A stretch of 64,000 nucleotides of DNA from Xanthobacteraceae bacterium (GTDB lineage: Bacteria; Pseudomonadota; Alphaproteobacteria; Rhizobiales; Xanthobacteraceae). Positions 40,738-55,604 of the stretch are shown here, one piece after another (within the stretch, counting starts at the first letter, position 1; each line of letters starts with the position of its first letter). The notes beneath the pieces were generated by a model. It was not told the DNA's origin and did no database searches. It saw nothing but the letters and a program-made list of their open reading frames with translations. The stretch lies in contig JAQSWY010000001.1 of NCBI GenBank assembly GCA_029266425.1, positions 248,001 through 312,000 of the forward strand, given 5' to 3'. The position numbers and the translations under genes were made by a program.

Positions 40738-40792
40738 CGCAAATGTTATCCTGCGCCACCACACGGAAGGCGCGCCGGGCGACAGAGATTTC

Positions 40793-41650: not shown

Positions 41651-41661
41651 GCCTGCCCCCC

Positions 41662-41934
41662 TCAAATGCGCCGGCGCGGCAGCGGGCGGCCGACGCGGCA
41701 GAGCATGAGGCCACCGACGCAGCCGATGAAGGCGGCGCCGGTGATGACGGCGAGCGCCATCGGCTGGCCGACCGGCGCGCCGGCGGGAGCGATGAGATCG
41801 AGCGCGCCTGCCGCCGCGGCGGGGCGCATGGTCGCGGCCAGGATGATGGCGCCGGCGGCGATGAGCACCACAAGCCAGAGGATGGCTGCGGTGCGGGCAT
41901 TGTCGGACATATGCGGAAAGAGCAGGCGACGCAT
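41662..41934 (-). CDS. Small two-helix membrane protein
   Basis: The 90-residue protein has two transmembrane segments ([19 protein letters not shown] and [19 protein letters not shown]) and a basic tail ([12 protein letters not shown]). AGGAGG precedes the ATG. It is 11 bp upstream of the DUF2312 gene in the same operon. No family is recognised. Confidence 0.7.
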
Positions 41935-41961
41935 GGAAGCCTCCTGACGGGGTGAAATGAG

Positions 41962-42492
41962 CTAGTCGCAGCCGGGGCCGACGGCGCCGGGATCGTCCTT
42001 CGCGACGAAATCCTTCCAGTGCCGCCAGCCGCCTGCGGCCGAGGATTTCGGGCACCAGAAGCCCCACTTGCGGACACGGGGGCCGACAAAGAACAGCGTG
42101 ACGGCCTGCTTCGGCTGGCCTTCGAAATCGCGCAGCAGTGCGAGCCGGTGTGCAAAGCGCGGACCGCGCCAGATGATGGAGCCGCGGCGCAGGGTGCGGG
42201 TGACCTGGTGGCCGGGATCCGCCGCAAGCTCCGGCACCGGGGCATAGGTCTCGATCAGCTCGCCGGAGAGCAGGATGGAGAGCGACTGCCAGGGGTGATC
42301 GTGCAGGGCGCGATCGTCATCGTCCCGCAGGAAGACGTGCAGATAGAGCCCGAACCAGTTGGAGCGCGGCATCCACCAGCGGAGCATGTAAGGCCGCTCG
42401 GTGCCGCCGATGAACATATCGGGCCGGCGGCGGGCCATGACATCTTCGCAGCGGCGGAGCAGGAAGCGGCGGAGGAAACCGGGGCAGCGCAT
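41962..42492 (-). CDS. Cupin-like phage protein of unknown function
   Basis: The 176-residue protein contains [20 protein letters not shown] and a later [10 protein letters not shown], a histidine-rich pattern compatible with a metal-binding cupin-type barrel, and ends [20 protein letters not shown]. Similar proteins occur in phages of this order, with no known role. Its ATG lies one base after the upstream stop codon. Confidence 0.7.
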
Positions 42493-42493
42493 C

Positions 42494-42760
42494 TCAGCGG
42501 CCCTCCGCCTTGGCGACAAGATATGCGGCGTCGCGGATGCGCTGCTTCTCGTGCCCCTTGGCAAAGACGGGATCCCTGCGAGCGACCTCCCGCACGAAAT
42601 CCAGCAATTCGGGGAGAGCGGCGATGGCCGCAGCGCGCTCCTTGTCTTGCGGTGCCGCCTTGTCGAAAGGATCGCCGACGACGCAGACACAGTGGCCTTC
42701 GTCGTCGAGGATAGTGAAATCTTCCGTGACGGTCCAAGGACCGCTTAGTTGCTTGGACAT
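42494..42760 (-). CDS. Small phage protein of unknown function
   Basis: The 88-residue protein begins MSKQLSGPWTVTEDFTILDD, with a short beta-rich start and a helical C-terminus (ELLDFVREVARRDPVFAKGH). It is directly upstream of the cupin-like gene in the leftward operon. No recognised family. Confidence 0.65.
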   Translation of the reverse strand: MSKQLSGPWTVTEDFTILDDEGHCVCVVGDPFDKAAPQDKERAAAIAALPELLDFVREVARRDPVFAKGHEKQRIRDAAYLVAKAEGR

Positions 42761-42783
42761 GCCAGCACCGTGACTTTGAGAAA

Positions 42784-42839
42784 ACCGCCGGAGCGCGTAG
42801 GGGGCTGCGCGGGAGGAGTGCGCAACGCGCTCCGGCGGT
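42784..42839. repeat. Perfect 15-bp inverted repeat in an intergenic gap
   Basis: ACCGCCGGAGCGCGT at 42784-42798 and ACGCGCTCCGGCGGT at 42825-42839 are exact reverse complements separated by 26 bp. The gap lies between two leftward genes. It could attenuate or process the early operon transcript; there is no T-tract typical of an intrinsic terminator. Confidence 0.7.
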
Positions 42840-42865
42840 GGTCCGACCGGGCCGAAGCTCGGGTC

Positions 42866-43144
42866 TCAGGAAATGCGGCGCTCGGCCCGCTCGCGGACGA
42901 TGGCGAGCGCCTCGTCCTGCAGCTCGTTGAGGGTCGGGAGGGACCAGCCGAGGGTGAGGAGATCCTCATCTTTCACGCTGCCCTGTCGGGCCACGATGTC
43001 CTCAATGTCCTGCGCGAGGTGGCTGACCTTCTCCTCGTGCTCGCGCAGCTGGCGGGCGACGAACTCGCTCACGCTCTCGCGGGGCGCCGCGATCGGCTGG
43101 CCGGGGATGAGGATGCGGCAGTTCGGTTCGGTGTGCGGCTGCAT
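42866..43144 (-). CDS. Small phage protein of unknown function
   Basis: The 92-residue protein starts MQPHTEPNCRILIPG (ATG 43144, GGGAG upstream; 43159 is an alternative). It has a long helical stretch, SVSEFVARQLREHEEKVSHL followed by AQDIEDIVARQG, likely a coiled coil. It is the first gene after a repressor-type operator at 43181-43199. Confidence 0.65.
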   Translation of the reverse strand: MQPHTEPNCRILIPGQPIAAPRESVSEFVARQLREHEEKVSHLAQDIEDIVARQGSVKDEDLLTLGWSLPTLNELQDEALAIVRERAERRIS

Positions 43145-43180
43145 GGCCGGGGCTCCCATCTGGGTCGTGCGATGGGAGAA

Positions 43181-43199
43181 ATGTAGGCATCACTTACAT
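43181..43199. promoter_or_regulatory. Palindromic operator, distal copy
   Basis: ATGTAGGCATCACTTACAT is an imperfect palindrome sharing the half-site ATGTAGGCA with the operator at 44830-44852. It is followed by overlapping GTAGG repeats (AATAGGTAGGTAGGC at 43209). It lies between a leftward gene and a rightward gene, where the phage repressor could control either. Confidence 0.6.
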
Positions 43200-43320
43200 T
43201 GAGTGTCAATAGGTAGGTAGGCAAAGGTCGGTAAGTGCATTGTCCCCAGTCGTGCGGATTTGTTCTTGAATTGTTCTCATTTCCTAAGTCTGATTGCTAC
43301 AGAAACGAGAGGAGCAGACC

Positions 43321-43617
43321 ATGCCAACGGTCACATATCACGTCGCGATGCCATATCTGCGGAGCGCCCGCGGGCGACTGAAGGAAGGGGAGCCGCAGCA
43401 GGCCGCTAGCCCAAGCCACGCGCGGCGGATGGCGGAGGCAATGGCGAAGCGCGTAGGGCCGACCGGCGGAGCTGTTGCCTTCTCGCGCCGCGGGGATCCC
43501 GACATGGGCGAATGGACGGACGCGGTGATCCTAGCGACCTATGGCGAGGTGCCGCTCGCTATCGAGGACGCGACGTCTGGTGGGCGGAGGGAATGGCCGG
43601 AGGCGATACCGGCCTGA
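43321..43617 (+). CDS. Small protein of unknown function, opposed to the leftward operon
   Basis: The 98-residue protein starts MPTVTYHVAMPYLRSARGRL at 43321 behind a strong GAGAGGAGCAG. It contains a helical SHARRMAEAMAKRVG and an acidic C-terminus. It stands alone on the plus strand within the lysogeny region and would be expressed from the operator region at 43181-43320. No family is recognised. Confidence 0.65.
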   Translation: MPTVTYHVAMPYLRSARGRLKEGEPQQAASPSHARRMAEAMAKRVGPTGGAVAFSRRGDPDMGEWTDAVILATYGEVPLAIEDATSGGRREWPEAIPA

Positions 43618-43653
43618 CTGTACAAGCGTTCACGCGCGCACATGGCTACGAGG

Positions 43654-44103
43654 CTATGTGCAACTCGATCCATCGAAGCGCACTTCGGTGAACTGGACGT
43701 TCCACCTGTCGGAGTAGGAAAGGACCACTCTTCCGCCTGTAGATAGAATGGTCTTAAAGCCGGCATTGGCGCAAATATTCTTCTTTGCCAGCCTACGCAG
43801 TTCCTCCTGTAGCTCGGTGTGCTTGTTGCTGGGGATGTCGAATGTGAGCATGTAGCTGATCGACAGTTGATCGTTATTGGCGGTCGCTCCAGTCAGCGTC
43901 GTGGAGCCATCGATCGCAAGTGGGGCCTTGCTCTGTAGCGTTGCGGCCGACTGAGAGATGGCATCGACGACGAGCTTCTGCGTATCGCGCTCCTCAAGCC
44001 AGTACGCGACGACCTGAGATCCTGCCACTGCGGCGACAATGACGAGGATAAACCTGAGCCACTTTGCTTTCGACCATGCAGACAAGGGCTCAGCGGGCAT
44101 CAT
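43654..44103 (-). CDS. Membrane-anchored phage protein with a periplasmic domain
   Basis: The 149-residue protein has one N-terminal transmembrane helix (WLRFILVIVAAVAGSQVVAYWL) and a soluble domain with two cysteines (NICANAG and SSCT). The start overlaps the end of the repressor gene (stop 44090), so the two are co-transcribed in a lysogen. A lysogen-expressed membrane protein is a good candidate for superinfection exclusion, but no homology supports that. Confidence 0.7.
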   Translation of the reverse strand: MMPAEPLSAWSKAKWLRFILVIVAAVAGSQVVAYWLEERDTQKLVVDAISQSAATLQSKAPLAIDGSTTLTGATANNDQLSISYMLTFDIPSNKHTELQEELRRLAKKNICANAGFKTILSTGGRVVLSYSDRWNVQFTEVRFDGSSCT

Positions 44104-44776
44104 ACCTTCCAACTACTCTGTGTGCTGTCGGCCAATCTATCCGATCTACATCGAACAGCTTGGCCGGATTGTACTGCTCCAGCTTCCACTTATCGTTGGT
44201 CCAGCCGACCAGGCTCTTGATCATCGCCTCCGCCTCGCCGGCCTCGCCGAAGGGCGGATGATCATAGAAGATGTGCACCTTGTCCCTCGCGACGGGCAGG
44301 CCGGGGTGCACCAAGGCCATGTCGCCGTGATTGAACGCGGGGCGCATGGAATCGCCGCTGATCAGCAGCGCATAGGCATTGCGCACACCCTCGAGGATGG
44401 AGGGGCGCTTCACAGTCTCGATCTGCTCGAAGTTCACGATGAGATGGCCTTCGCCGCCCATGGCCGCCGCATACACGGGAAAATCCCGGGCGCCGACGAG
44501 ATCATCACCGGGTATCATCTCGACCTTCGGCGTCTCCGGTCGCGGCGGCTTCGGCGGGCGCGAAGCGGCGGGCGTCTTGCCGCCCTTGAGAATGTCCTGC
44601 TCCGAAATGCCGAGTAGCTCCGCCAGTTCGGCAATGCGGGCCAGCGCGGGCTTGGTGGTATCGCTCTCCCATTGCGTGACCGACACGCGCTTGATCCCGA
44701 AATGACGCGCCACGTCATCCTGGGTGAGGCCTCTCGCCTCTCGCGCCGCGCGAATGCGTGATCCAAGGGTGCTCAT
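44090..44776 (-). CDS. CI/LexA-like phage repressor with S24 autoprotease domain
   Basis: The 228-residue protein has an N-terminal XRE helix-turn-helix (LTQDDVARHFGIKRVSVTQW) and a C-terminal S24 peptidase fold. The catalytic serine is in LISGDSMRPAF, and the lysine is probably in EAMIKSLVGW. The Ala-Ala/Met-Gly cleavage region lies around YAAAMGGEG. It should hold lysogeny by binding the palindromes beside its own gene and be inactivated during the SOS response. It is divergent from the cro-like gene. Confidence 0.9.
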   Translation of the reverse strand: MSTLGSRIRAAREARGLTQDDVARHFGIKRVSVTQWESDTTKPALARIAELAELLGISEQDILKGGKTPAASRPPKPPRPETPKVEMIPGDDLVGARDFPVYAAAMGGEGHLIVNFEQIETVKRPSILEGVRNAYALLISGDSMRPAFNHGDMALVHPGLPVARDKVHIFYDHPPFGEAGEAEAMIKSLVGWTNDKWKLEQYNPAKLFDVDRIDWPTAHRVVGRYDAR

Positions 44777-44823
44777 CCCCTCAAAGTAGCCATCGCTTAC
44801 CACGTGCGCACCAACGGTAGGCG

Positions 44824-44853
44824 TTGACGATGTAGGTAGGTTATGCCTACATA
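44824..44853 (+). promoter_or_regulatory. Rightward early promoter overlapping a repressor operator
   Basis: TTGACG (44824-44829) and TACATA (44848-44853), 18 bp apart, resemble a -35/-10 pair. The palindrome ATGTAGGTA...TGCCTACAT (44830-44852) fills the spacer. Repressor bound here would block polymerase. Predicted transcription start coincides with the ATG at 44859, and there is no Shine-Dalgarno, suggesting a leaderless message. Confidence 0.6.
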
Positions 44854-44858
44854 CTCGC

Positions 44859-45101
44859 ATGATTGCCTCAATCCAGCATGCTGCCGAGAACGTAGGGGGC
44901 ATCACACGGCTCGCTCGCGAGATCGGGGTGAAGCACCAGACCTTCTATTCATGGAAGCGCGTCCCAGCCGAGCGCGTGCTCGACATTGAGCGCGTAAGCG
45001 GAGTGCCGCGTCACGAGCTGCGGCCGGACCTCTATCCGGCGCCGAGCATGCCCACGGCGACTCCGGCCAGCAATTCCAACCTCACCGAGGCGTTGCCATG
45101 A
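44859..45101 (+). CDS. Cro/YdaS-like DNA-binding protein
   Basis: The 80-residue protein (AAENVGGITRLAREIGVKHQ then TFYSWKRVPAERVLDIERVS) matches the YdaS/Cro-like single helix-turn-helix family found opposite phage repressors. It should compete with the repressor at the shared operator. Translation probably begins without a ribosome binding site. Its stop overlaps the next start (ATGA). Confidence 0.85.
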   Translation: MIASIQHAAENVGGITRLAREIGVKHQTFYSWKRVPAERVLDIERVSGVPRHELRPDLYPAPSMPTATPASNSNLTEALP

Positions 45102-45616
45102 CGATGAAACGGGCGAACCCCGGTTCGGCGCACGATGCGCTCGTGCATTTGTTCGAAGCGATCGGCCGCGAGCACGGCGCCAACAGCGCGCCGGCCGAGG
45201 GCATTCCGCTTGCCGCCGATTTCCTTGGTGTGACGCACTGGACGCTGCGCAAGCAGCTGGACCCCGACCAGCCGAGTGATCTCGGCTTCGGCCGCGTCTC
45301 GCAGCTGACGCGCCACTTCGGCTGCGCCGACGCGGCGCAGCACCTGGCGCTCGCCGCCGGCGGCGTGTTCGTGCCGATGCCGAATGCGGACGGCAAGGTG
45401 GCCGGGCTATCTGCCGAGGTGATGCGCGAGACCGGCGAGGCCATCGCCCTGCTGCTGGCCGATATCGCGCCCGGCTCCGAAGGCGGGGCGGAGCTGACGC
45501 CGGCGGAGGCGGGCGACGCGCTGCCGGCGATCAGCGAGGCGCTCGCCCGGATGGCCGACCTCTATGCGCTGGTGAGCGAGACCGCGGCCCGCAAGACCCG
45601 CACCATGAAGCGGTGA
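45098..45616 (+). CDS. CII-like phage regulatory protein
   Basis: The 172-residue protein contains a CII-type helix-turn-helix region (IPLAADFLGVTHWTLRKQLD and FGRVSQLTRHFGCADAAQHL) and a C-terminal helical part. It is translationally coupled to the cro-like gene by ATGA. In lambdoid phages such proteins activate repressor establishment; here that role is inferred. Confidence 0.75.
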   Translation: MTMKRANPGSAHDALVHLFEAIGREHGANSAPAEGIPLAADFLGVTHWTLRKQLDPDQPSDLGFGRVSQLTRHFGCADAAQHLALAAGGVFVPMPNADGKVAGLSAEVMRETGEAIALLLADIAPGSEGGAELTPAEAGDALPAISEALARMADLYALVSETAARKTRTMKR

Positions 45617-45626
45617 GGGGGCGGCG

Positions 45627-46334
45627 ATGGGCGAGAACAGTAAGACCTTGAACAAACAGGGGGGAACCATGCTTGACCGCGTGGAAGCCGGAACGATCGA
45701 GACATTCTCGACGCGCAAGCTGCTCTCGCATTACGCCCATGTGCGCAAGCGCCTGATGCAGGGGCCGAGGACGCCGACGCTCACGCTGGTTCCACCAGCC
45801 GAGCCAGAGGAGCGGCCGACACCCGACGAGGTGCCGGCAGCGCAGTGCGACGAACCCGGCGAAACGTTGCCGGCCGAAGTGCTGGCGCATGTGGTGCACG
45901 TCTGCGCGGACAATGAGGGCCTGCTCGACCACGCGATGAAGTGGCTGCTGGTGTTCAACAAGCTGAACCCCGGCGCACTCACCATCGAGGTGGTGGAAGC
46001 GGAAATCGGCCGCGCGCAGGAAGCGCTGAAGAACCCGCGTCGGATCAGCATCGACGCTGTGGTGAAGGCGACGGCCGAACGCTTCGGGGTTTCGCGCGCC
46101 GATATCCTCTCGCAGCGGCGCACGGCAGACGTGGTCCGACCGCGCCAGGTGGCGATGTATCTGGCGAAGACGCTCACGCTGCGCTCGTTTCCCGAGATCG
46201 GCCGCCGGATGGGCGGGCGCGACCACACCACCGTGCTGCACGGTGTGAGGAAGATCGAGCAGCTGGCAGCGCAAAGCCCGACGCTTGCCGACGAGATCGC
46301 GGCCATTCGCGCGGGGCTGGAGGCGGGACGGTGA
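45627..46334 (+). CDS. Phage protein with a DnaA domain IV (DnaA-box binding)
   Basis: The 235-residue protein's last 80 residues (DVVRPRQVAMYLAKTLTLRS, then FPEIGRRMGGRDHTTVLHGV) are the C-terminal DNA-binding domain of DnaA, including the RDHTTV signature that contacts DnaA boxes. The AAA+ domain is absent; the N-terminal 130 residues show no nucleotide-binding motif. It may recruit or block initiation at DnaA boxes. Two starts have good ribosome sites: 45627 (AGGGGG) and 45669 (GGGGGGA). Confidence 0.85.
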   Translation: MGENSKTLNKQGGTMLDRVEAGTIETFSTRKLLSHYAHVRKRLMQGPRTPTLTLVPPAEPEERPTPDEVPAAQCDEPGETLPAEVLAHVVHVCADNEGLLDHAMKWLLVFNKLNPGALTIEVVEAEIGRAQEALKNPRRISIDAVVKATAERFGVSRADILSQRRTADVVRPRQVAMYLAKTLTLRSFPEIGRRMGGRDHTTVLHGVRKIEQLAAQSPTLADEIAAIRAGLEAGR

Positions 46335-46345
46335 AGTTGCTCGGC

Positions 46346-46762
46346 TCAGAAGGCGGGCATCTTGCCGGTGACAATAAAGGACGCCGTCGTATCGCTGCCC
46401 ATGCTTGTCAGGCGAACGTCGATCGCCTCGCCGGTTTGCTGAACAAGCACGGCGGCACCTTCCAGGCGCGCCACCGCGAGCGCCCAGCCTTCCGCGGCGA
46501 TCACACCGTGCGTGACCAGACGGCCGTGTTCGGGGCCGCCGGTGTGGCGATAGATTTCGATGCGGTACGTCGCGGCGGCGGAGCCTGTCTCGCGAGTACG
46601 CAGCCAGCCGTCGCCCGACAGCGTCGCAACATGCTGCATTCTACGTTCCGCGCCTCTCTTGGCGACGAGCTCACGCCTCGCAACTGCCGCTGCGGCGGTG
46701 CGCGCCGTTCTCGCCGTTGTGCGAGCTATCGCTCGCGCGCGACGATCAACCAGAGTTGCCAT
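46346..46762 (-). CDS. Hypothetical phage protein on the opposite strand
   Basis: The 138-residue frame starts MATLVDRRARAIARTTARTA, with a basic, Ala/Arg-rich N-terminus, then a beta-rich part (ATYRIEIYRHTGGPEHGRLV). It is preceded by no clear ribosome site. It opposes the rightward early genes. Coding is plausible from codon bias, but the call is weaker than for its neighbours. Confidence 0.5.
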   Translation of the reverse strand: MATLVDRRARAIARTTARTARTAAAAVARRELVAKRGAERRMQHVATLSGDGWLRTRETGSAAATYRIEIYRHTGGPEHGRLVTHGVIAAEGWALAVARLEGAAVLVQQTGEAIDVRLTSMGSDTTASFIVTGKMPAF

Positions 46763-46816
46763 GAAAGGGGAAGCATTGAGCCGGAGAAAGAGTTCCCCGC
46801 TAAAGTGGACGCTCGA

Positions 46817-47029
46817 TCAGTTTGGAACTTTGCTAAGCCAGCGGAATTCCTGAGCCCGCAGTTCGAAGTCGGCCGGCATTTCGAATCCGGTATTGCCGCC
46901 AGCAATCTCTGTGGCCACAACAATCCAGTACCGATCAATAGCGCCCTGACGATCCTGAACAGGAGGCTCGGCCGAATCTATATCTGCGGCGCACAAGGCG
47001 CGGGCGCGCATTTCCAAGTTCTCATCCAT
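46817..47029 (-). CDS. Small hypothetical phage protein on the opposite strand
   Basis: The 70-residue frame starts MDENLEMRARALCAADIDSA behind GTGGGGGA and ends EFRWLSKVPN. The middle (DRQGAIDRYWIVVATEIAGG) has normal coding composition. It is 54 bp upstream of the other minus-strand gene, and they may form a small leftward unit. Confidence 0.5.
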   Translation of the reverse strand: MDENLEMRARALCAADIDSAEPPVQDRQGAIDRYWIVVATEIAGGNTGFEMPADFELRAQEFRWLSKVPN

Positions 47030-47122
47030 TCCCCCACGATACCACCAGCGACCGAAGTCGGAAGCACCCTTTTTTGCACGTTCCCGCGAACCGCATCGGA
47101 TGAGCATCTCGCGCGCCCCGCG

Positions 47123-47161
47123 GAAAAAGAATGGCGCCGCTCCGGGGGACAGAGCGGCGCC
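47123..47161 (-). terminator. Intrinsic terminator on the minus strand
   Basis: GGCGCCGCTC and GAGCGGCGCC (47133-47142 and 47152-47161) form a perfect 10-bp stem. On the minus strand they are followed by ATTCTTTTTC. A second, smaller minus-strand hairpin with a T-tract lies at 47238-47255. They would end leftward transcripts, for example from hicAB. Confidence 0.65.
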
Positions 47162-47307
47162 GTGGTTCGGGCGGCTGGGGTGCTGGGGCTAGGGGTCGAT
47201 TGCCGCCCTCACTACTGGGTATTGCATGCGTTCGACAGAAAAACGCCGAAGCCGGCAGACGGTTCCACTCGCTCAATCGATAGGATGAAGCGGGAGGCGG
47301 GGCTGTA

Positions 47308-47655
47308 ATGGCGCGCGCTCCTTTCACCCTCGATGATCTCCCGGCGCGGCTGCGCGCACTCGTGCAGCTATGCCCCGCGAAGGGGTGCTGGCTGTGGATC
47401 GGTTCCACCAGTGGCACCGGGCGCGGCGGCGGCTATGGCCGCGTGAAGTGGCAGGGCGTGACCCAGGCCGCGCACAAGGTGGTGTGGCTGGTCTCCGGCG
47501 GGCGACTGCTGCGGGCGGGCGAACAGCTCGACCACACCTGCACGGTGCGCCGCTGCTGCAACCCGGCGCACCTCTCGCCTCTGTTCCAGAAGCGGAACAT
47601 GAAGCTGGCCTATTCCCGCCGCCGCGCGGCCTTCACGGCGGAGGCGGCGGAATGA
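47308..47655 (+). CDS. Phage HNH endonuclease
   Basis: The 115-residue protein has CPAKGCWLWIGSTSGTGRGG near the N-terminus and the HNH core LDHTCTVRRCCNPAHLSPL, with D-H and N-x2-H arranged as in small phage HNH nucleases. It may nick or cut DNA during replication or packaging, or be a free-standing homing-type enzyme. Confidence 0.82.
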   Translation: MARAPFTLDDLPARLRALVQLCPAKGCWLWIGSTSGTGRGGGYGRVKWQGVTQAAHKVVWLVSGGRLLRAGEQLDHTCTVRRCCNPAHLSPLFQKRNMKLAYSRRRAAFTAEAAE

Positions 47656-47672
47656 TCGCGCCGCCTCCCATC

Positions 47673-48104
47673 TCAGGCCGCATCCTCGAAGCTGATGGAC
47701 AGTCGCCCGCCGAGCGCACGGGCGGCCTCTTCCATCTGCTCCAGCTTGGTGCCGTGGCGCGGATCGAGGATGCGCCGCACCTCGACCTCGCTCCGGCCCA
47801 TGCGCGCGGCGAGGGCCGACTTGCTGATGCCGGCCGCGCGCCATGCCCGATAGACCGCAAGCTTCGCCGACACCTGCGCCGGCGGGAACACCGGAACCTC
47901 GCCGCGCTTCAGGGGCGACGGCTCGGCGACATCCGCGCCTTCCTGCATCAGGCCGACGATCGCCACCTCCAGCGCATCGGCCGCTTCCTCCTCCGCCTTC
48001 TCACGCGTCGGCGCCCAGGTGATGACCTCGGGCAGATCGCGCGAGCGCGCGACGAAGCCGAGTTCATCGTCCTGGGTGATCGTAAAGCCATAGGCCTTGT
48101 TCAC
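47673..48104 (-). CDS. hicB: HicB-family antitoxin
   Basis: The 143-residue protein has the HicB partial RNase-H fold start YGFTITQDDELGFVARSRDL and AEEEAADALEVAIVGLMQ, followed by a C-terminal helix-turn-helix (ISKSALAARMGRSEVEVRRI). It neutralises HicA and represses the operon through the C-terminal domain. It follows hicA with a 66-bp gap. Confidence 0.88.
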   Translation of the reverse strand: MNKAYGFTITQDDELGFVARSRDLPEVITWAPTREKAEEEAADALEVAIVGLMQEGADVAEPSPLKRGEVPVFPPAQVSAKLAVYRAWRAAGISKSALAARMGRSEVEVRRILDPRHGTKLEQMEEAARALGGRLSISFEDAA

Positions 48105-48170
48105 CGCTCTCTCTCCATTCGTTCAAGGCGTTTCCGAGACGTCCGCCCCAACATGGGTACTCGACCCCGC

Positions 48171-48383
48171 CTAGAAGGCGGCGGGGTCGAGGCCGAGTTG
48201 CTTGCAGATGTAGTTCCGGGCTGCACCTCGCGGGGAGTAGTCGCCATTCGGAAGGGTTGTTTTCTTGTCTTCAACCGCTATCCGGTAGTGGCTTCCCTTC
48301 CCGAGCTTGGTCTCGACTTCGAACCTCATGCCGTTCTTGCGGCAGTACTTTCGAAGTGCCCGGATAAAGTCGTCTCGGTTCAT
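48171..48383 (-). CDS. hicA: HicA-family mRNA interferase toxin
   Basis: The 70-residue double-stranded RNA-binding-fold toxin has the catalytic histidine in GKGSHYRIAV and the C-terminal ARNYICKQLGLD. GGGGAGGC precedes the ATG at 48383. The toxin is the first gene, as in most hicAB pairs. A palindromic operator lies 65-80 bp upstream. Confidence 0.88.
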   Translation of the reverse strand: MNRDDFIRALRKYCRKNGMRFEVETKLGKGSHYRIAVEDKKTTLPNGDYSPRGAARNYICKQLGLDPAAF

Positions 48384-48426
48384 GCCTCCCCTCTCCAATT
48401 TCGATGGAGAGATATTCGCACAAAAA

Positions 48427-48464
48427 TGTACGAGGCACAAGGGAAATCGTACAGAAATGTACGA
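48427..48464. promoter_or_regulatory. Probable HicB operator
   Basis: TCGTACAGAAATGTACGA (48447-48464) is a perfect 7-bp palindrome with a four-base centre. An extra half-site TGTACGA at 48427-48433 lies 31 bp from its counterpart. It is between hicA and the divergent TSCPD gene, the expected position for HicB autorepression. Confidence 0.65.
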
Positions 48465-48478
48465 ATGGGAGCGACGGC

Positions 48479-48802
48479 ATGACACGCAAAAACCTGCCCC
48501 AGAGGCGGGCGAACGAGACCTTCGATTTCGTGCACCCGCCCGGCACGGCCACGCGCTACTCGGCGACGCTCGGCTTCTATCCCGACGGGAGTATCGGCGA
48601 GATTTTCATCGACGGCGCCAAGGTCGGCTCGGATGCCGAGATCAACACCTCGGATGCCGCGGTGGTGCTCTCGATCGCGCTCCAGCACGGCGCGCATCTC
48701 GACGAGCTACGCCACGCCATATCGCGCAATTCTCACGGCGCCCCGCTCGGCCCCATCGGCACGCTGCTCGACGCTCTGGCGGCGGGGGAGGGCACCGCGT
48801 GA
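48479..48802 (+). CDS. TSCPD-domain protein (ribonucleotide reductase-like C-terminal domain)
   Basis: The 107-residue protein contains SATLGFYPDGSIGEIFIDGA and LSIALQHGAHLDELRHAISR, a pattern of the TSCPD domain found at the C-terminus of class II ribonucleotide reductases and as stand-alone phage proteins. The reductase catalytic domain itself is missing. Its role may be regulatory or structural. Confidence 0.75.
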   Translation: MTRKNLPQRRANETFDFVHPPGTATRYSATLGFYPDGSIGEIFIDGAKVGSDAEINTSDAAVVLSIALQHGAHLDELRHAISRNSHGAPLGPIGTLLDALAAGEGTA

Positions 48803-48985
48803 TTACCGTGGCCTCGCCTGCAACTGTCGGACGAGCGCTTCGAGATTGGCGATGCGGCCCTCCTGTTCGTCGACGTGCCTCGCCATTTCGGCGATTTCTC
48901 TCGCGAGAGCCTGGCAGCTCTGCGGCGTCTGGTTGTTTCCCCAAGTCCGCGCGGCACCCAAGACTCGCTGAAGCTGAAATGGCAT
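48803..48985 (-). CDS. Small coiled-coil protein
   Basis: The 60-residue frame starts MPFQLQRVLGAARTWGNNQT at 48985 behind GGAGG. The C-terminal half (AREIAEMARHVDEQEGRIAN, then LEALVRQLQ) has strong heptad character. It opposes its neighbours and lies exactly between them, ending next to the TSCPD stop. Confidence 0.55.
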   Translation of the reverse strand: MPFQLQRVLGAARTWGNNQTPQSCQALAREIAEMARHVDEQEGRIANLEALVRQLQARPR

Positions 48986-49058
48986 TTGCGGTTCCTCCCT
49001 CTCCAATTGAGGCAGGTACAATCTTCCGGTCAGCTGGTCCTGTCGAGAGGGGGCTGGC

Positions 49059-50849
49059 ATGACCGGAATCATCATCGACAGTTTTGCCGGCGGCGGCGGC
49101 GCTTCCACCGGCATCGAATGGGCGCTTGGCCGCTCGCCTGACATCGCGATCAATCACGATGCCGAGGCGCTCTCGATGCACGCGGTGAACCATCCTGCGA
49201 CGCGGCACCTGAATTCCAACATCTGGCAGGTGGACCCGGACGATGTGTGCGCCGGACGCCCGGTCGATCTTCTGTGGGCGTCGCCGGACTGCAAGCACCA
49301 CAGCAAGGCCAAGGGCGGGCGCCCGCTGAAGCGCTCGATCCGCGATCTCGCTTGGGTGGTGGTGCTGTGGGCGAAGCGCGCGCGGCCCAAGGTGATCCTG
49401 CTGGAGAACGTCGAGGAGTTCCGCGACTGGGGGCCGCTGGTGCAGAAGACCGGCGCGGACGGAAGCCCAGTGCTCGACGACGCCGGCAACCCGTTCATGG
49501 TGCCGTGTCCGAACCGCCGCGGTGAGACCTTCAATCGCTGGGTCGGCGAGCTGCGGCGGCTCGGCTACAAGGTGGAATGGCGGGAGCTACGCGCCTGCGA
49601 CTTCGGCGCGCCGACGGTGCGCAAGCGGCTGTTCCTGATCGCCCGGCGGGATGGCCGAAAGATCGTGTGGCCGAAGCCGACGCATGGAGCACCGACCGAT
49701 CCCGACGTGATCGCCGGTCGCAAGCAGCCCTGGCGGACGGCGGCCGAGATCATCGACTGGTCGCTGCCGTGCCCCTCGATCTTTGCCACGTCGGCGGAGA
49801 TCAAGCGCGACTTCGGCGTCGCGGCCAGGCGGCCGCTCGCCGAGGCCACGCTCACCCGCATCGCCAAGGGGGTGAAGCGCTACGTGCTCGATGCTGCGGC
49901 GCCCTTCATCATCCGCACCGACATGGCGAGCGCGGCGAAGCGCAACGGGGTGCACGACACCGGCGAACCGATCCGCACGATGACGACGTCGGGCTCTTTC
50001 GCCCTGGTCGACCCGGTTCTGATGCCCTTCTCCAGCTATGGGCAGCAGGGCGGCGCATCGCGGACGCTCGACGGGCCGCTGCACACGATCACTGCCAGCC
50101 GGAAGGACACCGATCAGATCGTCGCGCCGTTCTTCGTGCCGCGCTATGGCGAGCGGAAAGGGCAGGAGCCTCGGTGCCAGCCGGCCCATGTGCCGCTCGC
50201 AACCGTCGTGCCGACGGGCAACGGGGCCTCGCTCGTCTCCGCCTTCCTCGCCCAGCACAACACCGACATGGTCGGCCACGATGCGCGCGAGCCGGTCTCG
50301 ACCATCGTGGGCAAGGGCTGCACGCAGGCTGTCGTTTCGGCCGGCCTCTTGAACCTCAAAGGTAGCGACCGGCGCGACGCGGATGCGAAGGCGCCGGCAC
50401 CGACCATCTGCGCCGGCGGCGGGCATGTCGCCGAGGTGCGCGCCTTCCTGATGAAATACTACGGGACCGATCAGGATCCGCGCCTCGACGAACCCTGCCA
50501 CACGGTGACGACGCGCGATCGCTTCGGCGTCGTCACCGTCTCGATCGGCGGCGAGCCTTATGTGCTGGTCGACATCGGCATGCGCATGCTCACCTCGCGC
50601 GAGCTGTTCCGCGCGCAGGGCTTTCCCGACAGCTACATCATCGAGCACGGCTATGACGGCCAGCCGTTCACCGGCGAGGCGCAGAAGCGCATGGTCGGCA
50701 ACAGCGTGTCTCCGTACATGGCCGAGGCCCTGGTGCGGGCGAACTGCCTTAGCCTTGAGGAAACGGCGCCCAAGGGCAGGCCGGTCCCCCGCGCCACGTC
50801 CGCGCCGATGATGTCGGCACCCCTCTTCGCCGAGGAGGCCGTGCCGTGA
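49059..50849 (+). CDS. Orphan DNA (cytosine-5) methyltransferase
   Basis: The 596-residue protein has C5-methyltransferase motif I (DSFAGGGGASTGIEWAL), motif IV as ASPDCKHHSKAKGG with the catalytic cysteine, ENVEEFRDWG (motif VI), RKRLFLIARRDG (motif VIII) and the final GNSVSPYMAEAL (motif X). Motif IV reads PDC rather than the usual PPC. A long variable insert (about residues 230-500) should hold the target-recognition domain. No restriction enzyme is adjacent, so it likely protects phage DNA or changes host methylation. Confidence 0.93.
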   Translation: MTGIIIDSFAGGGGASTGIEWALGRSPDIAINHDAEALSMHAVNHPATRHLNSNIWQVDPDDVCAGRPVDLLWASPDCKHHSKAKGGRPLKRSIRDLAWVVVLWAKRARPKVILLENVEEFRDWGPLVQKTGADGSPVLDDAGNPFMVPCPNRRGETFNRWVGELRRLGYKVEWRELRACDFGAPTVRKRLFLIARRDGRKIVWPKPTHGAPTDPDVIAGRKQPWRTAAEIIDWSLPCPSIFATSAEIKRDFGVAARRPLAEATLTRIAKGVKRYVLDAAAPFIIRTDMASAAKRNGVHDTGEPIRTMTTSGSFALVDPVLMPFSSYGQQGGASRTLDGPLHTITASRKDTDQIVAPFFVPRYGERKGQEPRCQPAHVPLATVVPTGNGASLVSAFLAQHNTDMVGHDAREPVSTIVGKGCTQAVVSAGLLNLKGSDRRDADAKAPAPTICAGGGHVAEVRAFLMKYYGTDQDPRLDEPCHTVTTRDRFGVVTVSIGGEPYVLVDIGMRMLTSRELFRAQGFPDSYIIEHGYDGQPFTGEAQKRMVGNSVSPYMAEALVRANCLSLEETAPKGRPVPRATSAPMMSAPLFAEEAVP

Positions 50850-51892
50850 GTGTCGATGCATCCTATTGGGCGTGGCGGATCACGTCTCTCGCGCCGGGCG
50901 CCAAGCTGGTGCTGATGGCGCTCGCCGACTATGCCGACGAGGAGCATTGCTGCTGGCCGAGCCGCCGCATGCTGGCCGAGCGCAGCGTGCAGAGCCCGGA
51001 AACCGTCTCGCGCCGGCTGGCCGACCTCGAGGCGGCCGGGCTGATCGAGCGGACGCCGCGCGTCGGCCCGAATGGCGGGCGCACGAGCGACATGATCCGC
51101 CTTCTGATCACGGTGCAGAAGGGCACCCCCCCTTGTCAGATTGACAAGGCCCCCCCTCGTCAATCTGACGAGGCCCCCCTTGTCAGCGGTGACAAGGCCC
51201 CCTTGTCAACTGTGACAACACAGGAACCGTCAATTGAACCGTCAATAGAAGAACCCCCCATAGCCCCCGAGGGGGACGGAGCGGGCGAAGCCGAACATGG
51301 GGATGGGGAAGGGGAGAGCAGGCCGGACACGCAGTTCGCCGTCTTCATCGAGACATTCCAGCCGGATCCGGCCTATTCCGAGCGCAAGGCGATGCGGGCA
51401 TGGGCTCGGCTCTCCACCGTCGAGCGGGCCGAGGCCCTGGCTGGCCTGCCGCGCTACCTCGCCCATTGCCGAGCCATCAAGCGGCGTGTCTGCGATCCCG
51501 CGTCGTTCCTGAACGAACGGCGCTGGAAGAACTTTCCTGCCATCCACACCAAGGCTGAGCCGGCTCCGCGACCGATCGAGGATGACCCGATCAAGCGGGC
51601 CGTGCTGTGGGCGATGTCCGGTGCGGCCGATCGCTCGCAATGGGTGTTCGTCGAGGAAGGAACCGACGCCTGGGCGGCATGGCATGCAGCCTATCGGCAA
51701 GCTGGCTTCGCCAATCGCTTCACCATGGGGCGGCACGAGCTGGTGCGCGGCAGCGACGGCGGCTGGGTGCAGAGCGAGCACAAGGGCCGAACCTTCCCGC
51801 AGCGCTATCCGCCCAAGGGCGACGGCGGCAAGACCGGCCCGCCGGGCGGGATGACGGAAGCGGATCGGGATGTGTTGCGGCAAGGGATTTGA
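50846..51892 (+). CDS. Lambda-O-like replication initiator with an embedded origin
   Basis: The 348-residue protein starts with GTG overlapping the methylase stop (GTGA). The N-terminal winged helix (YWAWRITSLAPGAKLVLMAL, AERSVQSPETVSRRLADLEA) is typical of phage replication proteins. A repetitive Pro/Lys/Asp linker (about residues 92-125) is encoded by the palindromic repeats described separately. The C-terminal half (QFAVFIETFQPDPAYSERKA onwards) has no motif I can name. In lambda the O gene likewise contains ori. Confidence 0.8.
   Translation: MSVDASYWAWRITSLAPGAKLVLMALADYADEEHCCWPSRRMLAERSVQSPETVSRRLADLEAAGLIERTPRVGPNGGRTSDMIRLLITVQKGTPPCQIDKAPPRQSDEAPLVSGDKAPLSTVTTQEPSIEPSIEEPPIAPEGDGAGEAEHGDGEGESRPDTQFAVFIETFQPDPAYSERKAMRAWARLSTVERAEALAGLPRYLAHCRAIKRRVCDPASFLNERRWKNFPAIHTKAEPAPRPIEDDPIKRAVLWAMSGAADRSQWVFVEEGTDAWAAWHAAYRQAGFANRFTMGRHELVRGSDGGWVQSEHKGRTFPQRYPPKGDGGKTGPPGGMTEADRDVLRQGI
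51133..51218. repeat. Four hyphenated palindromes (iterons), candidate phage replication origin
   Basis: Units at 51133-51147 (TTGTCAGATTGACAA), 51157-51171 (TCGTCAATCTGACGA), 51180-51195 (TTGTCAGCGGTGACAA) and 51203-51218 (TTGTCAACTGTGACAA) are spaced 24, 23 and 23 bp apart and separated by GGCCCCC tracts. A lower-GC stretch with the direct repeat ACCGTCAAT-N-GA follows at 51227-51250. The pattern parallels lambda ori inside gene O. Confidence 0.75.
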
Positions 51893-51902
51893 GGAGGCGA
51901 GT

Positions 51903-52559
51903 ATGGCAAGGCGCGGAAGGCCGAGGAAGCAGGGCAAGCGGTTCCCTTCGGGGAAGCTTTCCCAAAAGCCGCGAGATGTGCGGGATGTGGTGTGCGCGCA
52001 GCCGCACCGGCGTGGCCTCGCCGAGGATCTGCGCAAGGATCAGCGGGCGGCGACGGAGATCGGCCGCATGTTCCTGAGCGGTGTGATCTCCGAGGCGAAG
52101 TATTGGGCCGCCGAGCGCTGGCGCGGTGTGGTGCGGGAGTTCCATGTCGTGCTCGCCACGCCCATGCAGACGAGCTCGGCGCTCGCCGGCATGGTGGCGC
52201 CCGGTATGGAACAGCCGATGGAGGCCGATCATCTCGCAGCGGAGTGCCCCGAGTCGGAGGTGCAGAAGCGCGCTCGTGTGCTGAAGGCGCACGGCGCTGC
52301 GATGCGGGCGATCCGGGCTTTGCCCGAGGCCAGCAACGTGTTCGCCGTTCTGGAAGCGGTGGTGATCAAAGACGAGCCTTGTCGTGACGATGATTTGCGG
52401 TTGCTCCGATCGGGGCTTTTGGCCTTCTGCCGGCTCTGGCGCATGGAGGATCGAGCACCGGGCGAGGAACCCGACGTCAGGGTGTCTGGCGTGCGTGCTG
52501 AGCGGCCTTCATGGGGACATGATGAAAAAGAAGTCCGGATTGTCTATTCCAATCCTTGA
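51903..52559 (+). CDS. AT-hook-bearing phage protein of unknown function
   Basis: The 218-residue protein begins MARRGRPRKQGKRF, an AT-hook-like basic GRP motif. A helical middle follows, with IGRMFLSGVISEAKYWAAER and VQKRARVLKAHGAAMRAIRA. GAGGAGGCG precedes the ATG. It is the last gene of the early rightward block before a terminator-like hairpin. I recognise no family; DNA binding is inferred from the N-terminus. Confidence 0.65.
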   Translation: MARRGRPRKQGKRFPSGKLSQKPRDVRDVVCAQPHRRGLAEDLRKDQRAATEIGRMFLSGVISEAKYWAAERWRGVVREFHVVLATPMQTSSALAGMVAPGMEQPMEADHLAAECPESEVQKRARVLKAHGAAMRAIRALPEASNVFAVLEAVVIKDEPCRDDDLRLLRSGLLAFCRLWRMEDRAPGEEPDVRVSGVRAERPSWGHDEKEVRIVYSNP

Positions 52560-52609
52560 CGCTTTTTGCCAAATCAGATTACGACTACCTAAATTGATAA
52601 TGAGGATGG

Positions 52610-52640
52610 TATGCCCGGAGCGGAGACGCGGCCGGGCATA
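52610..52640 (+). terminator. Hairpin at the end of the early rightward operon
   Basis: TATGCCCGG and CCGGGCATA form a perfect 9-bp stem with a 13-bp loop, followed by GTTGTTTC. It lies 51 bp after the preceding stop and likely ends or attenuates the early transcript. Confidence 0.55.
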
Positions 52641-52680
52641 GTTGTTTCTGGAGGGCGGCATGGTCCGGTATCACCCCTCC

Positions 52681-52711
52681 TTGACTTGCCGCCGTCTTCA
52701 GCGATCCTAAT
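52681..52711 (+). promoter_or_regulatory. Candidate promoter of the small leader-peptide gene
   Basis: TTGACT (52681-52686) is followed after 17-19 bp by ATCCTAAT, a weak -10 (CCTAAT matches four of six bases). It lies between a terminator-like hairpin and the 39-codon gene, about 40 bp upstream of its ATG. Confidence 0.4.
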
Positions 52712-52750
52712 GGCGCTCAACCCATGGTGAGCGTTACTTAGGGGGACGAT

Positions 52751-52870
52751 ATGCGGAAGATCTATACGGCACCTGTCCTTGCAAAGGCCGGCACGCTTTC
52801 GGCGGTGACGGCAGGCGCGGCCTTCTCCGGAAAGAAGGGCAAGCCAGGGCCGGTCCAGAACGGCACCTGA
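52751..52870 (+). CDS. Lasso/RiPP-like leader peptide gene (39 residues), orphan
   Basis: The ATG at 52751 is preceded by a strong GGGGGA ribosome site. The N-terminus contains YTAPVLAKAGTLSAVT, which fits the lasso precursor leader pattern Y-x2-P-x-L-x3-G-x5-T exactly; that pattern is bound by the B1/RRE protein in lasso systems. The predicted core after the Thr-Ala would be GAAFSGKKGKPGPVQNGT. It starts with glycine but has Lys-Lys-Gly where Asp or Glu is needed at ring position 7-9, so a normal macrolactam is not possible. No B, C or transporter gene is nearby. An intrinsic terminator follows 27 bp later, making it an independent unit between phage early and late genes. Confidence 0.7.
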   Translation: MRKIYTAPVLAKAGTLSAVTAGAAFSGKKGKPGPVQNGT

Positions 52871-52896
52871 CCGCTTCCTCATCCGGGAGCATTCTC

Positions 52897-52930
52897 AAAG
52901 GCCCGAGCGGAAACGCTTCGGGCCTTTTCT
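52897..52930 (+). terminator. Intrinsic terminator after the small peptide gene
   Basis: AAGGCCCGA and TCGGGCCTT pair around a GAAA-type loop region with one bulged base, followed by TTCT. It isolates the peptide gene from the late packaging genes. Confidence 0.75.
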
Positions 52931-52949
52931 ATTCTGAGGTGTTCCCTCC

Positions 52950-53309
52950 ATGCCACGCCTCAAGGCGCTGCCCTCTCGCATCTCACCTGCGCTATCGCGC
53001 ATTGCAATCCAAACCAGCGACGAACGGCAGCGCACACAGTTGCGTCGCACGTCCGCACCGTGGCGTGCCTGGTACGACACCGAGCGCTGGCGGAAGAAGC
53101 GCATCGCCATCTTCACCCGCGATCTGTTCACCTGCCGTATGCGCGGCTGCGGTCGCATTGAAGGCAACACCTCTCAACTCGTGTGCGATCACATCGTGCC
53201 GCACCGAGGCGATGAGCGCCTGTTCTGGGATGACGCGAACCTGCAGACCCTCTGCAAGCCCTGCCACGATCGGCTGAAGCAGATCGAGGAGCGCCGGGCC
53301 GTCCGGTGA
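52950..53309 (+). CDS. Phage HNH endonuclease of the packaging module
   Basis: The 119-residue protein has two CxxC-like knuckles (CRMRGCGR and LCKPCHD) flanking the HNH core LVCDHIVPHRGDERLFWDDA with NLQTLC. HNH proteins at this position assist terminase in HK97-type phages, where they are needed for specific cleavage. GAGG precedes the ATG. Confidence 0.9.
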   Translation: MPRLKALPSRISPALSRIAIQTSDERQRTQLRRTSAPWRAWYDTERWRKKRIAIFTRDLFTCRMRGCGRIEGNTSQLVCDHIVPHRGDERLFWDDANLQTLCKPCHDRLKQIEERRAVR

Positions 53310-53394
53310 CGCCAAGCACGGGGAGGGGGGTGCAAAAGTCTGGAAGCCTCTTCTCGTCCCGACCCGCGCCCTTACCGTTCGGAGTTTTTTTCCT

Positions 53395-53886
53395 GTGGCT
53401 GACGAGAATTCCGAACCCCGCCCCGATGTCGATCTGTTCGGCGCGCCGATCGCGCCGATACGAGATCGCCGCGGCCGGCCGTCTTTCAAGAAAGACAAGG
53501 AAAATCAAGAGTTTGTTGCGATACGCGCGGCGGCCGGCTGGTCGCAGAGGCGGATCGCCGAGAACATGGGCGTCGATGAGAAGACGCTCCGGAAGTATTT
53601 TTCCCGCGAGCTCGAATACGGCGCGGTGCTTACCGAGGGCGTCATGCTCGACGTGCTCATGAAGCTGGTGCGCGAAGGCAAGGTCCAGGCGATCAAGCAG
53701 CTCTACGCTATGATCAAAACCGCCGCGCCGGCTGCGCCCCGCAACCATGCCGACGCGGAGGACGACGAGCCGGAGGCCGAGGATAAGCCGAAGGCGCTCG
53801 GCAAGAAGGAGCAGGCGCTGCAGGACGCGCAGATGATCCCTGATGACTACGGGGACATCTTCGCGAAGATGGGCCGGCGGCACTGA
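53395..53886 (+). CDS. Terminase small subunit
   Basis: The 163-residue protein begins with GTG at 53395. It has a helix-turn-helix (IRAAAGWSQRRIAENMGVDE KTLRK split over two helices), a central oligomerisation helix (LDVLMKLVREGKVQAIKQLY) and an acidic C-terminus. It recognises phage DNA for packaging. Its stop overlaps the TerL start (TGATG). Confidence 0.85.
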   Translation: MADENSEPRPDVDLFGAPIAPIRDRRGRPSFKKDKENQEFVAIRAAAGWSQRRIAENMGVDEKTLRKYFSRELEYGAVLTEGVMLDVLMKLVREGKVQAIKQLYAMIKTAAPAAPRNHADAEDDEPEAEDKPKALGKKEQALQDAQMIPDDYGDIFAKMGRRH

Positions 53887-55604
53887 TGCCCGAGGGCATT
53901 TCGTTCGCTTGCCCCGACTGGTTCGACAAGCTGAAGGCCGGGCAGACGCCTATTCCGGTGCTGCCGCTCGACGAGGTGCTCGCCGAGTGCGCGGTGGCCC
54001 TGTTCAACAAGCTGCGTATTCCGGACATCCCCGGCATGCCGACCATGGGCGAGGCGGCCGGGGAGTGGATGCGCGACATCGTGCGCGCGGCCTTCGGATC
54101 GATCGATCCGAGGTCTGGCGAGCGCTTCGTTGGCGAGTTGTTCAACCTGGTGCCGAAGAAGAACGGCAAGACGACGAACGCGGCGGCGCTCGGCCTCATC
54201 GCGCTGATGATGAACCGCCGGCCGAACATCGACGGCGTCATCATTGGGCCGACGCAGGAGGTGGCCGACAAGTGCTTCATGCAGGCATGCGCCATGATCG
54301 AGGCGGATGCCTATCTGTCGCGGCGGTTCAAGGTCATCGACCACAAGAAGACGATCGTCGATCTACATGTCGACGAGCGCACGGGTGTTCGCATGAATGC
54401 CCGGCTCAAGATCAAGAGCTTCGATCCGAAGGTGGTCACCGGCTCGATCCCGGCCTTCGCGATCCTTGATGAGCTGCACGTCATGGCGGAATCGCCCTCC
54501 GCCAGGCGCGTGCTCGGCCAGATCCGCGGCGGCATGATCACCAATCCGGAAAGCCTGCTGATCATCATCACCACGCAGTCTGAGGTGCCGCCGTTCGGCA
54601 TCTTCAAGGAGGAGCTGCAGTACGCCCGCGCGGTGCGCGACGGTAAGATCACCGAGGGCGTCAGGATGCTGCCGGTGCTCTACGAATTCCCAGAGGCGAT
54701 GCAGCTCGATCCGACGCTGCCGTGGAAAGACACGAAGAACTGGAGTTTGGTGCTGCCTAACCTCGGCCGCTCGCTGAGCGTCGACCGCCTCAATGGCGAG
54801 TGGCAGACCGAGTGGAAGAAGGGCGAGGAGGCGGCGCGCCGCTGGGCCAGCCAGCATCTCAATATCGAGATCGGCATGGCGATGCACGATGATCGCTGGA
54901 TCGGCGCCGACTTCTGGACCGAGGCGACCGACCGGCGCGTCACGCTCGACTACATCAAGGCGAATGCCGACGTCTGCGTGGTCGGCGGCGATGTCGGCGG
55001 CCTCGACGATCTGTGGGGCCTCGCCGTCATCGGGCGGCACAAGGTCACCCGGCACTGGATGCTGTGGGCAAAAGCCTGGGCGCAGAAGAAGGTGCTGGAG
55101 CGGCATAAGGAGATCGTCAGCAAGCTCGCCGATTTCGAGGCGGAGCGCACGCTGGTCATATGCGAGCGCGTCACGCAAGACGCCGAGGAGGCCGCGCAGA
55201 TCATCGTTGATCTCTGGCAGGAAGGGCTCTTGCCGGATGCGAACGCGATCGGCCTGGACCCGGCCGGCGTTCCCGCGCTCCTCGAGGAGCTCGCCTCCTA
55301 CGGCATCGGCGAGCCGATGGTGGCGGCGGTGACGCAGGGTTACCGGCTTTCCTCGGCGATATTCGGCACAGAGCGAAAGCTCGCCGACGGTACGATGAAG
55401 CACGGCGGCTCGGCACTGCTGCGCTGGTGCGTCGAGAATGCCCGATGTGAGCAACGCGGCAGCAATGTCTACATCGAGAAGCGGACCGGCAGCTCGAAGA
55501 TCGACCCGCTGATGGCGAGCTTCAACGCTGTCGAAATGATGAGCCGCAACCCGGTTGCCAAGAGCCGTATCGATGACTTCCTCGCGAACCCGGTGCACTC
55601 ATGA
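53886..55604 (+). CDS. Terminase large subunit
   Basis: The 572-residue packaging motor has an ATPase domain with Walker A VPKKNGKTTN and Walker B FAILDELHVM, then a nuclease domain with VVGGDVGGLDDL (metal-binding aspartates), ICERVTQDAEEA and GLDPAG near the end. This matches the HK97/P27-like terminase class. It is coupled to TerS upstream and to the portal gene downstream (ATGATG overlapping the stop). Confidence 0.93.
   Translation: MPEGISFACPDWFDKLKAGQTPIPVLPLDEVLAECAVALFNKLRIPDIPGMPTMGEAAGEWMRDIVRAAFGSIDPRSGERFVGELFNLVPKKNGKTTNAAALGLIALMMNRRPNIDGVIIGPTQEVADKCFMQACAMIEADAYLSRRFKVIDHKKTIVDLHVDERTGVRMNARLKIKSFDPKVVTGSIPAFAILDELHVMAESPSARRVLGQIRGGMITNPESLLIIITTQSEVPPFGIFKEELQYARAVRDGKITEGVRMLPVLYEFPEAMQLDPTLPWKDTKNWSLVLPNLGRSLSVDRLNGEWQTEWKKGEEAARRWASQHLNIEIGMAMHDDRWIGADFWTEATDRRVTLDYIKANADVCVVGGDVGGLDDLWGLAVIGRHKVTRHWMLWAKAWAQKKVLERHKEIVSKLADFEAERTLVICERVTQDAEEAAQIIVDLWQEGLLPDANAIGLDPAGVPALLEELASYGIGEPMVAAVTQGYRLSSAIFGTERKLADGTMKHGGSALLRWCVENARCEQRGSNVYIEKRTGSSKIDPLMASFNAVEMMSRNPVAKSRIDDFLANPVHS

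Follow-up and report, generated by a model that had tools for sequence, protein, structure and literature searches.

The 39-codon ORF at positions 52751 to 52870 of the window (the whole 64,000-nucleotide stretch analyzed here) resembles a lasso peptide precursor gene and lies between the early and late modules of a prophage, which raises the question of what such a gene encodes there and which enzymes act on its product. It is probably a phage moron encoding a stand-alone substrate for a cyclase-less, lasso-like RiPP pathway of the host.

The gene was assigned by its sequence, a match to NCBIfam NF033521 (lasso_leader_L3; 19.3 bits, a narrow pass of the cutoff of 19), and a search for paralogues. 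The coordinates, the 39-residue product (MRKIYTAPVLAKAGTLSAVTAGAAFSGKKGKPGPVQNGT), and the lasso-leader spacing given in a preliminary description were all correct, and the pattern Y-x2-P-x-L-x3-G-x5-T near a start codon occurred once in the window and in 0 of 60 simulated windows. The leader (M1 to A21; 52751 to 52813, + strand, as for all genes and signals below) contains the lasso-type RRE-binding motif YxxPxL and Thr at −2, as judged from NF033521 and a 24-row alignment of family members (A1). The predicted core (GAAFSGKKGKPGPVQNGT; 52814 to 52867), also delimited with A1, starts with GAAFSGKKG; the cleavage point between leader and core was placed by lasso rules. The G at −8 of the earlier leader motif varied in A1 and was rejected as a family feature. 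The ribosome site reported earlier was recovered as a Shine-Dalgarno sequence, AGGGGG (52740 to 52745), and GGGGG also occurred 5′ of several host solo precursor genes. A −35-like TTGAC (52681 to 52685) lies 70 nt 5′ of the ATG, and an intrinsic terminator hairpin of the cassette (52897 to 52927) is followed by a T-rich tract. Folding of this hairpin (−23.1 kcal/mol, z = −3.8) upheld the claim that the gene has its own terminator, although a consensus promoter and terminator scan left it unlisted. The claim of its own promoter-like sequence held in part: TTGAC is at the spacing typical of the family, but no sigma-70 promoter in a suitable position for the gene came up in the same scan.

Genes on both sides of the precursor gene are of phage type. 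Upstream are a replication initiator (50846 to 51892; phrog_270, E = 1.4e-23) and a phage protein of unknown function (51903 to 52559; phrog_15385, E = 6e-8), and downstream are an HNH endonuclease (52950 to 53309; phrog_589, E = 1.4e-29), a small-terminase-like HTH protein (53395 to 53886; assigned by position and weak matches, the best being phrog_12540, of unknown function), and the terminase large subunit (TerL; 53886 to 55604; phrog_9, E = 2.8e-97). A 596-amino-acid frame at 49059 to 50849 looked by eye like a phage cytosine-5 DNA methyltransferase. At E ≤ 1e-50, TerL had matches in 29 of the 299 genomes searched, counting the window's own. The three closest same-genus prophages (TerL 74 to 76% identical) could be aligned on both sides of the precursor gene, from a hairpin close to where the early region ends (52610 to 52640), whose sequence they conserve, to the start of the HNH gene at the right edge of the insertion. 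At the place of the 298-nt stretch carrying the cassette (52652 to 52949; no strand assigned), these relatives have 8 to 9 nt. The GC-rich hairpin itself, between the early and late modules, is possibly a terminator or a late-operon leader element. Phage morons, in the lambdoid sense, are autonomous promoter-gene-terminator units that lie between phage genes and are missing from relatives. As read from sequence, the approximately 290-bp cassette is such a unit, with a putative promoter, and is missing from syntenic relatives; it would differ from classic morons in that its product would need host posttranslational enzymes. Among 30 TerL loci searched for the motif (approximately 1.5 kb upstream), a leader-bearing short frame was found only in the window's own.

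When 200 related genomes were searched with the window precursor, matches below an E value of 1e-3 were confined to its own genome (G000) and the genome of another species in the same genus (G022); some match at E ≤ 1 was found in 73 genomes, nearly all of these matches being weak. Ten paralogues (63 to 81% identical; E = 1.3e-7 to 3.5e-9) are on contig C9 of the same assembly, nine of them in a tandem array (C9:95976-97443) and the tenth (102790-102888) adjoining genes for B1 and B2. The assembly thus contains paralogues as well as B1, B2, kinase-like (K), and nucleotidyltransferase (N) genes, and the term "orphan" used in the preliminary description does not apply. A host solo precursor (C84:146515-146610; as L037, C84:146464-146610) with a long proline-rich tail, GGGVEDDVAPPPPAAPPAQ, is on the same contig as the window and the prophage. 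In G022, a homologous array is accompanied by one copy adjoining B1, by five solos at scattered sites, and by three precursors with a second type of core; an array member was 82% identical to the window precursor over 33 residues (E = 5.6e-12). Four G022 solos (L039 to L042) have similar upstream regions (GCAACAC box, TTGAC, and GGGGGCC ribosome site), and in two of them a longer precursor of a second type (TAAPVSRSG or TPAPVSRSS core) lies approximately 280 to 550 bp upstream.

When 391 genomes of the family were searched with the A1 profile, five matched at E ≤ 0.01: G000 at 12 places, G022 at 17, G011 at three and G001 at one (in the leader only for both), and G017 at one doubtful place. 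A pattern scan of genome contigs returned at least 114 stretches; the pattern was too degenerate, and on rechecking, none had the family leader and core, one (L109) showing a weak leader match with no start codon. A plasmid search gave two Mesorhizobium matches, in the leader only, including a solo gene on NZ_CP080533.1 annotated as "putative RiPP precursor." This plasmid gene belongs to the leader class and is a solo, and its record assigns no core or machinery; the NCBI entry "lasso RiPP family leader peptide-containing protein" (NF033521) likewise covers the same leader class as annotation only, with no core or machinery assigned.

All 24 cores in A1 have F-S-G-K-K; the window core shares FSGKK with the other 23 rows. 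A1 leaves out the second core type and two array members of G022, of which one has a degenerate leader and the other had been assigned too late a start. Cores adjacent to modules in G000, G022, G011, G001, and G711 vary (NFSGKK, VTSGY, and PDSGDE) and all contain Ser-Gly, as would suit a kinase directed at Ser. Elsewhere, several solos, including some host solos of other genera, are without Ser-Gly. On contig C8 of G711 (L295:8100-8640), three precursors with unusually long N termini before YxRPAL and acidic Ser-Gly cores adjoin a B1-B2-K-N set.

A leader pattern scan of 2.9 million IMG/VR contigs returned five contigs, the window's own and four other phage-classified contigs from three lineages. 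These four copies are solo genes for precursors of 28 to 34 amino acids with a good leader and cores unlike that of the window; Ser is present in all four and Ser-Gly in one. On two related contigs (89 to 94% identical blocks), the gene is approximately 0.9 kb past the Rz spanin that follows the endolysin, and TerL is on the contig; the PHROGs matches for spanin and endolysin were read on one contig, and the same frames are in the other. On the remaining two contigs, genes for tail, head, and lysis functions are present, the precursor gene is close to a contig end, and TerL gave no match. Copies in G770 and G772 are approximately 1.5 and 0.5 kb from the contig end, with a lipoprotein-like gene intervening in G770, and we are unsure whether these copies are inside the phage; G771 had few PHROGs matches in the 9 kb beyond its precursor gene. 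In a first viral scan, 1 of 23 stretches was real (L167; IMGVR_UViG_3300042922_001480), with 13,995 bases 100% identical to 40258 to 54252 of the window. Because of this identity, L167 is of the same source as the window and is not independent of it; the window's genome was probably binned from the same metagenome. Further viral pattern scans (0, 3, 1, and 8 matches) yielded no new copy: the three matches were known already, the single one was the window's copy, and the eight comprised three already known and five with in-frame stops. Searches of phage records gave no match. No report of phage-borne precursors of this kind was found in open-access full texts; RiPP families have been tied to phages by coexpression (PMC11118758).

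TTGAC was present 61 to 70 nt before the ATG in all five phage copies and 59 to 71 nt before the start in 10 of the 12 host copies that come first in their unit (the exceptions being G011 and G001), compared with 0 of 14 array-internal copies and a shuffled expectation of 2.4%; the TTGAC-bearing copies are not all independent, since several are close relatives. Genome-wide, six of the eight GCAACAC-N33-42-TTGAC matches in G022 were precursor promoters (reversed control, 0), as was one of five in G000 (control, 4). The phage copies have no GCAACAC box.

Substitution patterns point to strong constraint on the precursor family (window versus 24 paralogues, pN = 0.20 and pS = 0.66; core, all pairs, pN = 0.021 and pS = 0.544). 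The window core compared with the others gave a pN of 0.114 and a pS of 0.522. Its third position is Ala, in contrast to Asn in 22 of the 24 aligned sequences and Ser in one, and this change suggests weaker constraint on the window copy alone. The preliminary description held that a frame not conserved in related prophages would indicate a chance match; the cassette as a whole was absent from the three aligned prophages, not drifted, and the frame was conserved in host paralogues. In one phage pair (L301/L302), five nonsynonymous and no synonymous changes separate intact frames, which is compatible with neutrality or diversification and counts against purifying selection. This pair, together with the three relatives lacking the cassette, favors an alternative in which a host precursor gene was captured by recombination and is carried unused, and capture would be easy because solo precursors are scattered over the sister genome. 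Passive carriage is nevertheless unlikely, given that the frame, leader, ribosome site, TTGAC spacing, and terminator are all intact and that solo copies recur in four phage lineages, including that of the window.

Because Ala replaces a nearly invariant Asn, the window core might be processed poorly or even act as an antagonist. With its intact leader, the phage copy might then act as a decoy that titrates or poisons host RiPP enzymes or competes for the receptor of the host peptide, and it could blunt a host RiPP harmful to phages or lysogens; PMC12360287 reviews a lanthipeptide whose anti-phage action falls on late transcription. This alternative is slightly more doubtful still, as the core retains FSGKK, the cores of the other phage copies are quite different, and an anti-phage role of the host peptide is assumed.

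The cluster beside the array in G000 (L036) encodes an AMP-ligase, a GNAT protein, N (NTP_transf_5; 100.2 bits, cutoff of 31.2), K, the lasso-type protease B2 (lasso_biosyn_B2; 50.9 bits, cutoff of 33), and B1, a PqqD-type, lasso-type RRE (34.1 bits, cutoff of 23.4). The whole-genome search proposed earlier for RRE, protease, and cyclase genes located B1 and B2 on C9 and found no cyclase. The sole B2 match of the assembly was on C9, which bears out, for the protease, the earlier statement that the prophage contains no RRE, protease, or cyclase gene. Lasso cyclase NF033535 had no matches in the G000 draft, and PF00733 had only two partial matches. Full-length Asn_synthase was not found in G000, G011, or G017; in G022, one occurs at 3.12 Mb, approximately 0.66 Mb from the cluster, and G001 has one approximately 1.04 Mb from the cluster on the same contig. 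Searches (tblastn) for a cyclase near the module in six loci (L036, L038, L225, L226, L295, and L321) found none, and as a positive control, they recovered the Asn-synthetase-like gene of a separate lasso cluster in G523. That lasso-type cluster, which has an acidic residue at core position 9, is approximately 9 kb from a cyclase-less B1-B2-K-N module (G523:C1:5586800-5602000; L320 and L321). An MsbA-like gene near the G000 array scored below the NCBIfam cutoff, and an exporter of this type was set aside as a cluster component after tblastn found none over the 20-kb cluster stretch of G022. The placement of cluster and prophage in one cell is taken from binning and sister-genome synteny, since the assembly is a draft of 222 contigs (91.65% complete, 7.5% contamination); C9 and C84 each have long stretches 82 to 88% identical to G022.

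For K, the four best PDB sequence matches were HPr kinases (E = 0.003 to 0.013), and its score against Pfam HPr kinase was 18 bits, below the cutoff of 33.3. An AlphaFold model (pLDDT, 91.2) matched PEPCK in Foldseek (best E = 4.4e-11), with no HPr kinase among the 50 matches listed; we take PEPCK and HPr kinase to belong to one superfamily. Across the K family (12 sequences; A2), a Walker A motif is present and H136, D176, and D177 are invariant; residue spacing was compared with that of the catalytic residues of HprK. By its modeled fold, K is an HprK/PEPCK-fold kinase-like protein and a putative kinase.

Leader matches were found in 15 of 397 genomes of the order. B2 was present in all 11 leader-positive genomes checked (of 14 besides G000) and in one of four genomes included because they carry related terminases. 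Of 15 further B2 loci, each read over approximately 3.4 kb, 11 had homologues of B1, B2, and K grouped together, and N was also in view in 10 of these 11. Three of the remaining loci had none of these homologues, the G002 locus showed no more than a weak B2 match, and for another two B2 places there was no locus. The predicted cyclase-less B1-B2-K-N pathway is, on gene content, widespread in the order. Three genomes with related terminases (G010, G012, and G248) had no B2 match, and G002 had B2 with no B1, K, or N homologue within the 3.4 kb or the 16 kb read; these cases were too few to claim that the cassette is linked to pathway-bearing hosts.

A classical lasso peptide precursor would account for the NF033521 match, for the leader motif with Thr at −2, and for B1 and B2, which are found in the host assembly and not in the prophage. 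Lasso peptides also have Asp or Glu at core positions 7 to 9 and an Asn-synthetase-like cyclase. As the preliminary description had concluded, the window core (K-K-G at 7 to 9) excludes the classical ring; none of the 24 aligned cores has an acid there, and no cyclase was found in the genome, so that this identity is highly improbable and was rejected. A chance open frame, to which the short length and marginal HMM score would be suited, was rejected as next to impossible because of the paralogues, above all the G022 array member.

Most probably, the product is not a lasso peptide but a linear one carrying a modified Ser, with the linear polyphosphorylated peptides (LPP) of Bacillota as its closest counterpart. 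LPP clusters (Popov et al. 2026; PMC13381572) have, as here, a discrete RRE, an HprK-like kinase, an NTP transferase, a lasso-like YxxP leader, no macrolactam cyclase, and a product predicted to be linear. An MsbA-like exporter is also part of the LPP clusters; the MsbA-like gene near the G000 array, below the NCBIfam cutoff, is described above. Colocalization of lasso and LPP clusters is reported for Bacillota as well, and the G523 arrangement parallels this lasso/LPP/paeninodin colocalization (PMC13381572). The systems differ in the protease, which is the transglutaminase-like B2 here and a SipW-like SpI peptidase in those LPP clusters; no SipW-like SpI peptidase was present among nine frames scanned in the C9 cluster region, where B2 is present. 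The LPP leader is given in that paper as YxxPxVLxHQxIxFETxxS, and the HQ/FET motif is missing from the leader here. Further differences from LPP are the occurrence in Alphaproteobacteria, the short cores, the large tandem and scattered precursor sets, the phage-borne copies, and the additional AMP-ligase and GNAT genes in G000 and G022. Paeninodin/pseudomycoidin-type lasso clusters share B1, B2, an HPr-kinase homologue, and a nucleotidyltransferase, with Ser phosphorylation followed by glycosylation of the phosphate, according to PMC8498205; unlike them, the present system has no cyclase found, no ring acid, and a Ser that is not C-terminal.

Maturation of a phage substrate by the host is the simplest reading, since the precursor retains its leader, the assembly encodes the machinery, the prophage has no B2, and the cassette has its own signals; among the roles first proposed, which also took in a decoy and a lysis-lysogeny signal, that of a substrate for host RiPP enzymes is the one supported. 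We infer that the gene is expressed and its product matured in trans as follows. From a one-gene cassette of promoter, precursor, and terminator that was inserted at the boundary of the early region with the late operon (HNH-TerS-TerL), a precursor would be made whose YxxPxL motif is bound by host B1 as a discrete RRE. The HprK-like K would phosphorylate the core Ser in SGKK; N, together with the adjacent AMP-ligase and GNAT protein in this host, may decorate the phosphate or the lysines; and host B2 would cleave after Thr-Ala to give a linear 18-residue peptide made by lysogens. What the phage gains is a guess, most likely a lysogenic-conversion trait.

Extended to the group, it is quite possible, if short of probable, that temperate phages of Hyphomicrobiales-type Alphaproteobacteria repeatedly carry single-gene RiPP substrates with no maturation genes and that the cyclase-less B1-B2-K-N pathway of the host, used as a common factory, gives lysogens their own phosphorylated linear peptide serving as an identity tag, immunity factor, or signal. 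The results suggest that lasso-leader HMM matches with no nearby cyclase should not be annotated as lasso peptides. They join two questions, namely, what cyclase-less lasso-like pathways produce and why "orphan" lasso-leader genes are scattered. If the proposed reading is true, a cassette of approximately 290 bp would buy the phage a posttranslationally modified peptide, a route to lysogenic conversion.
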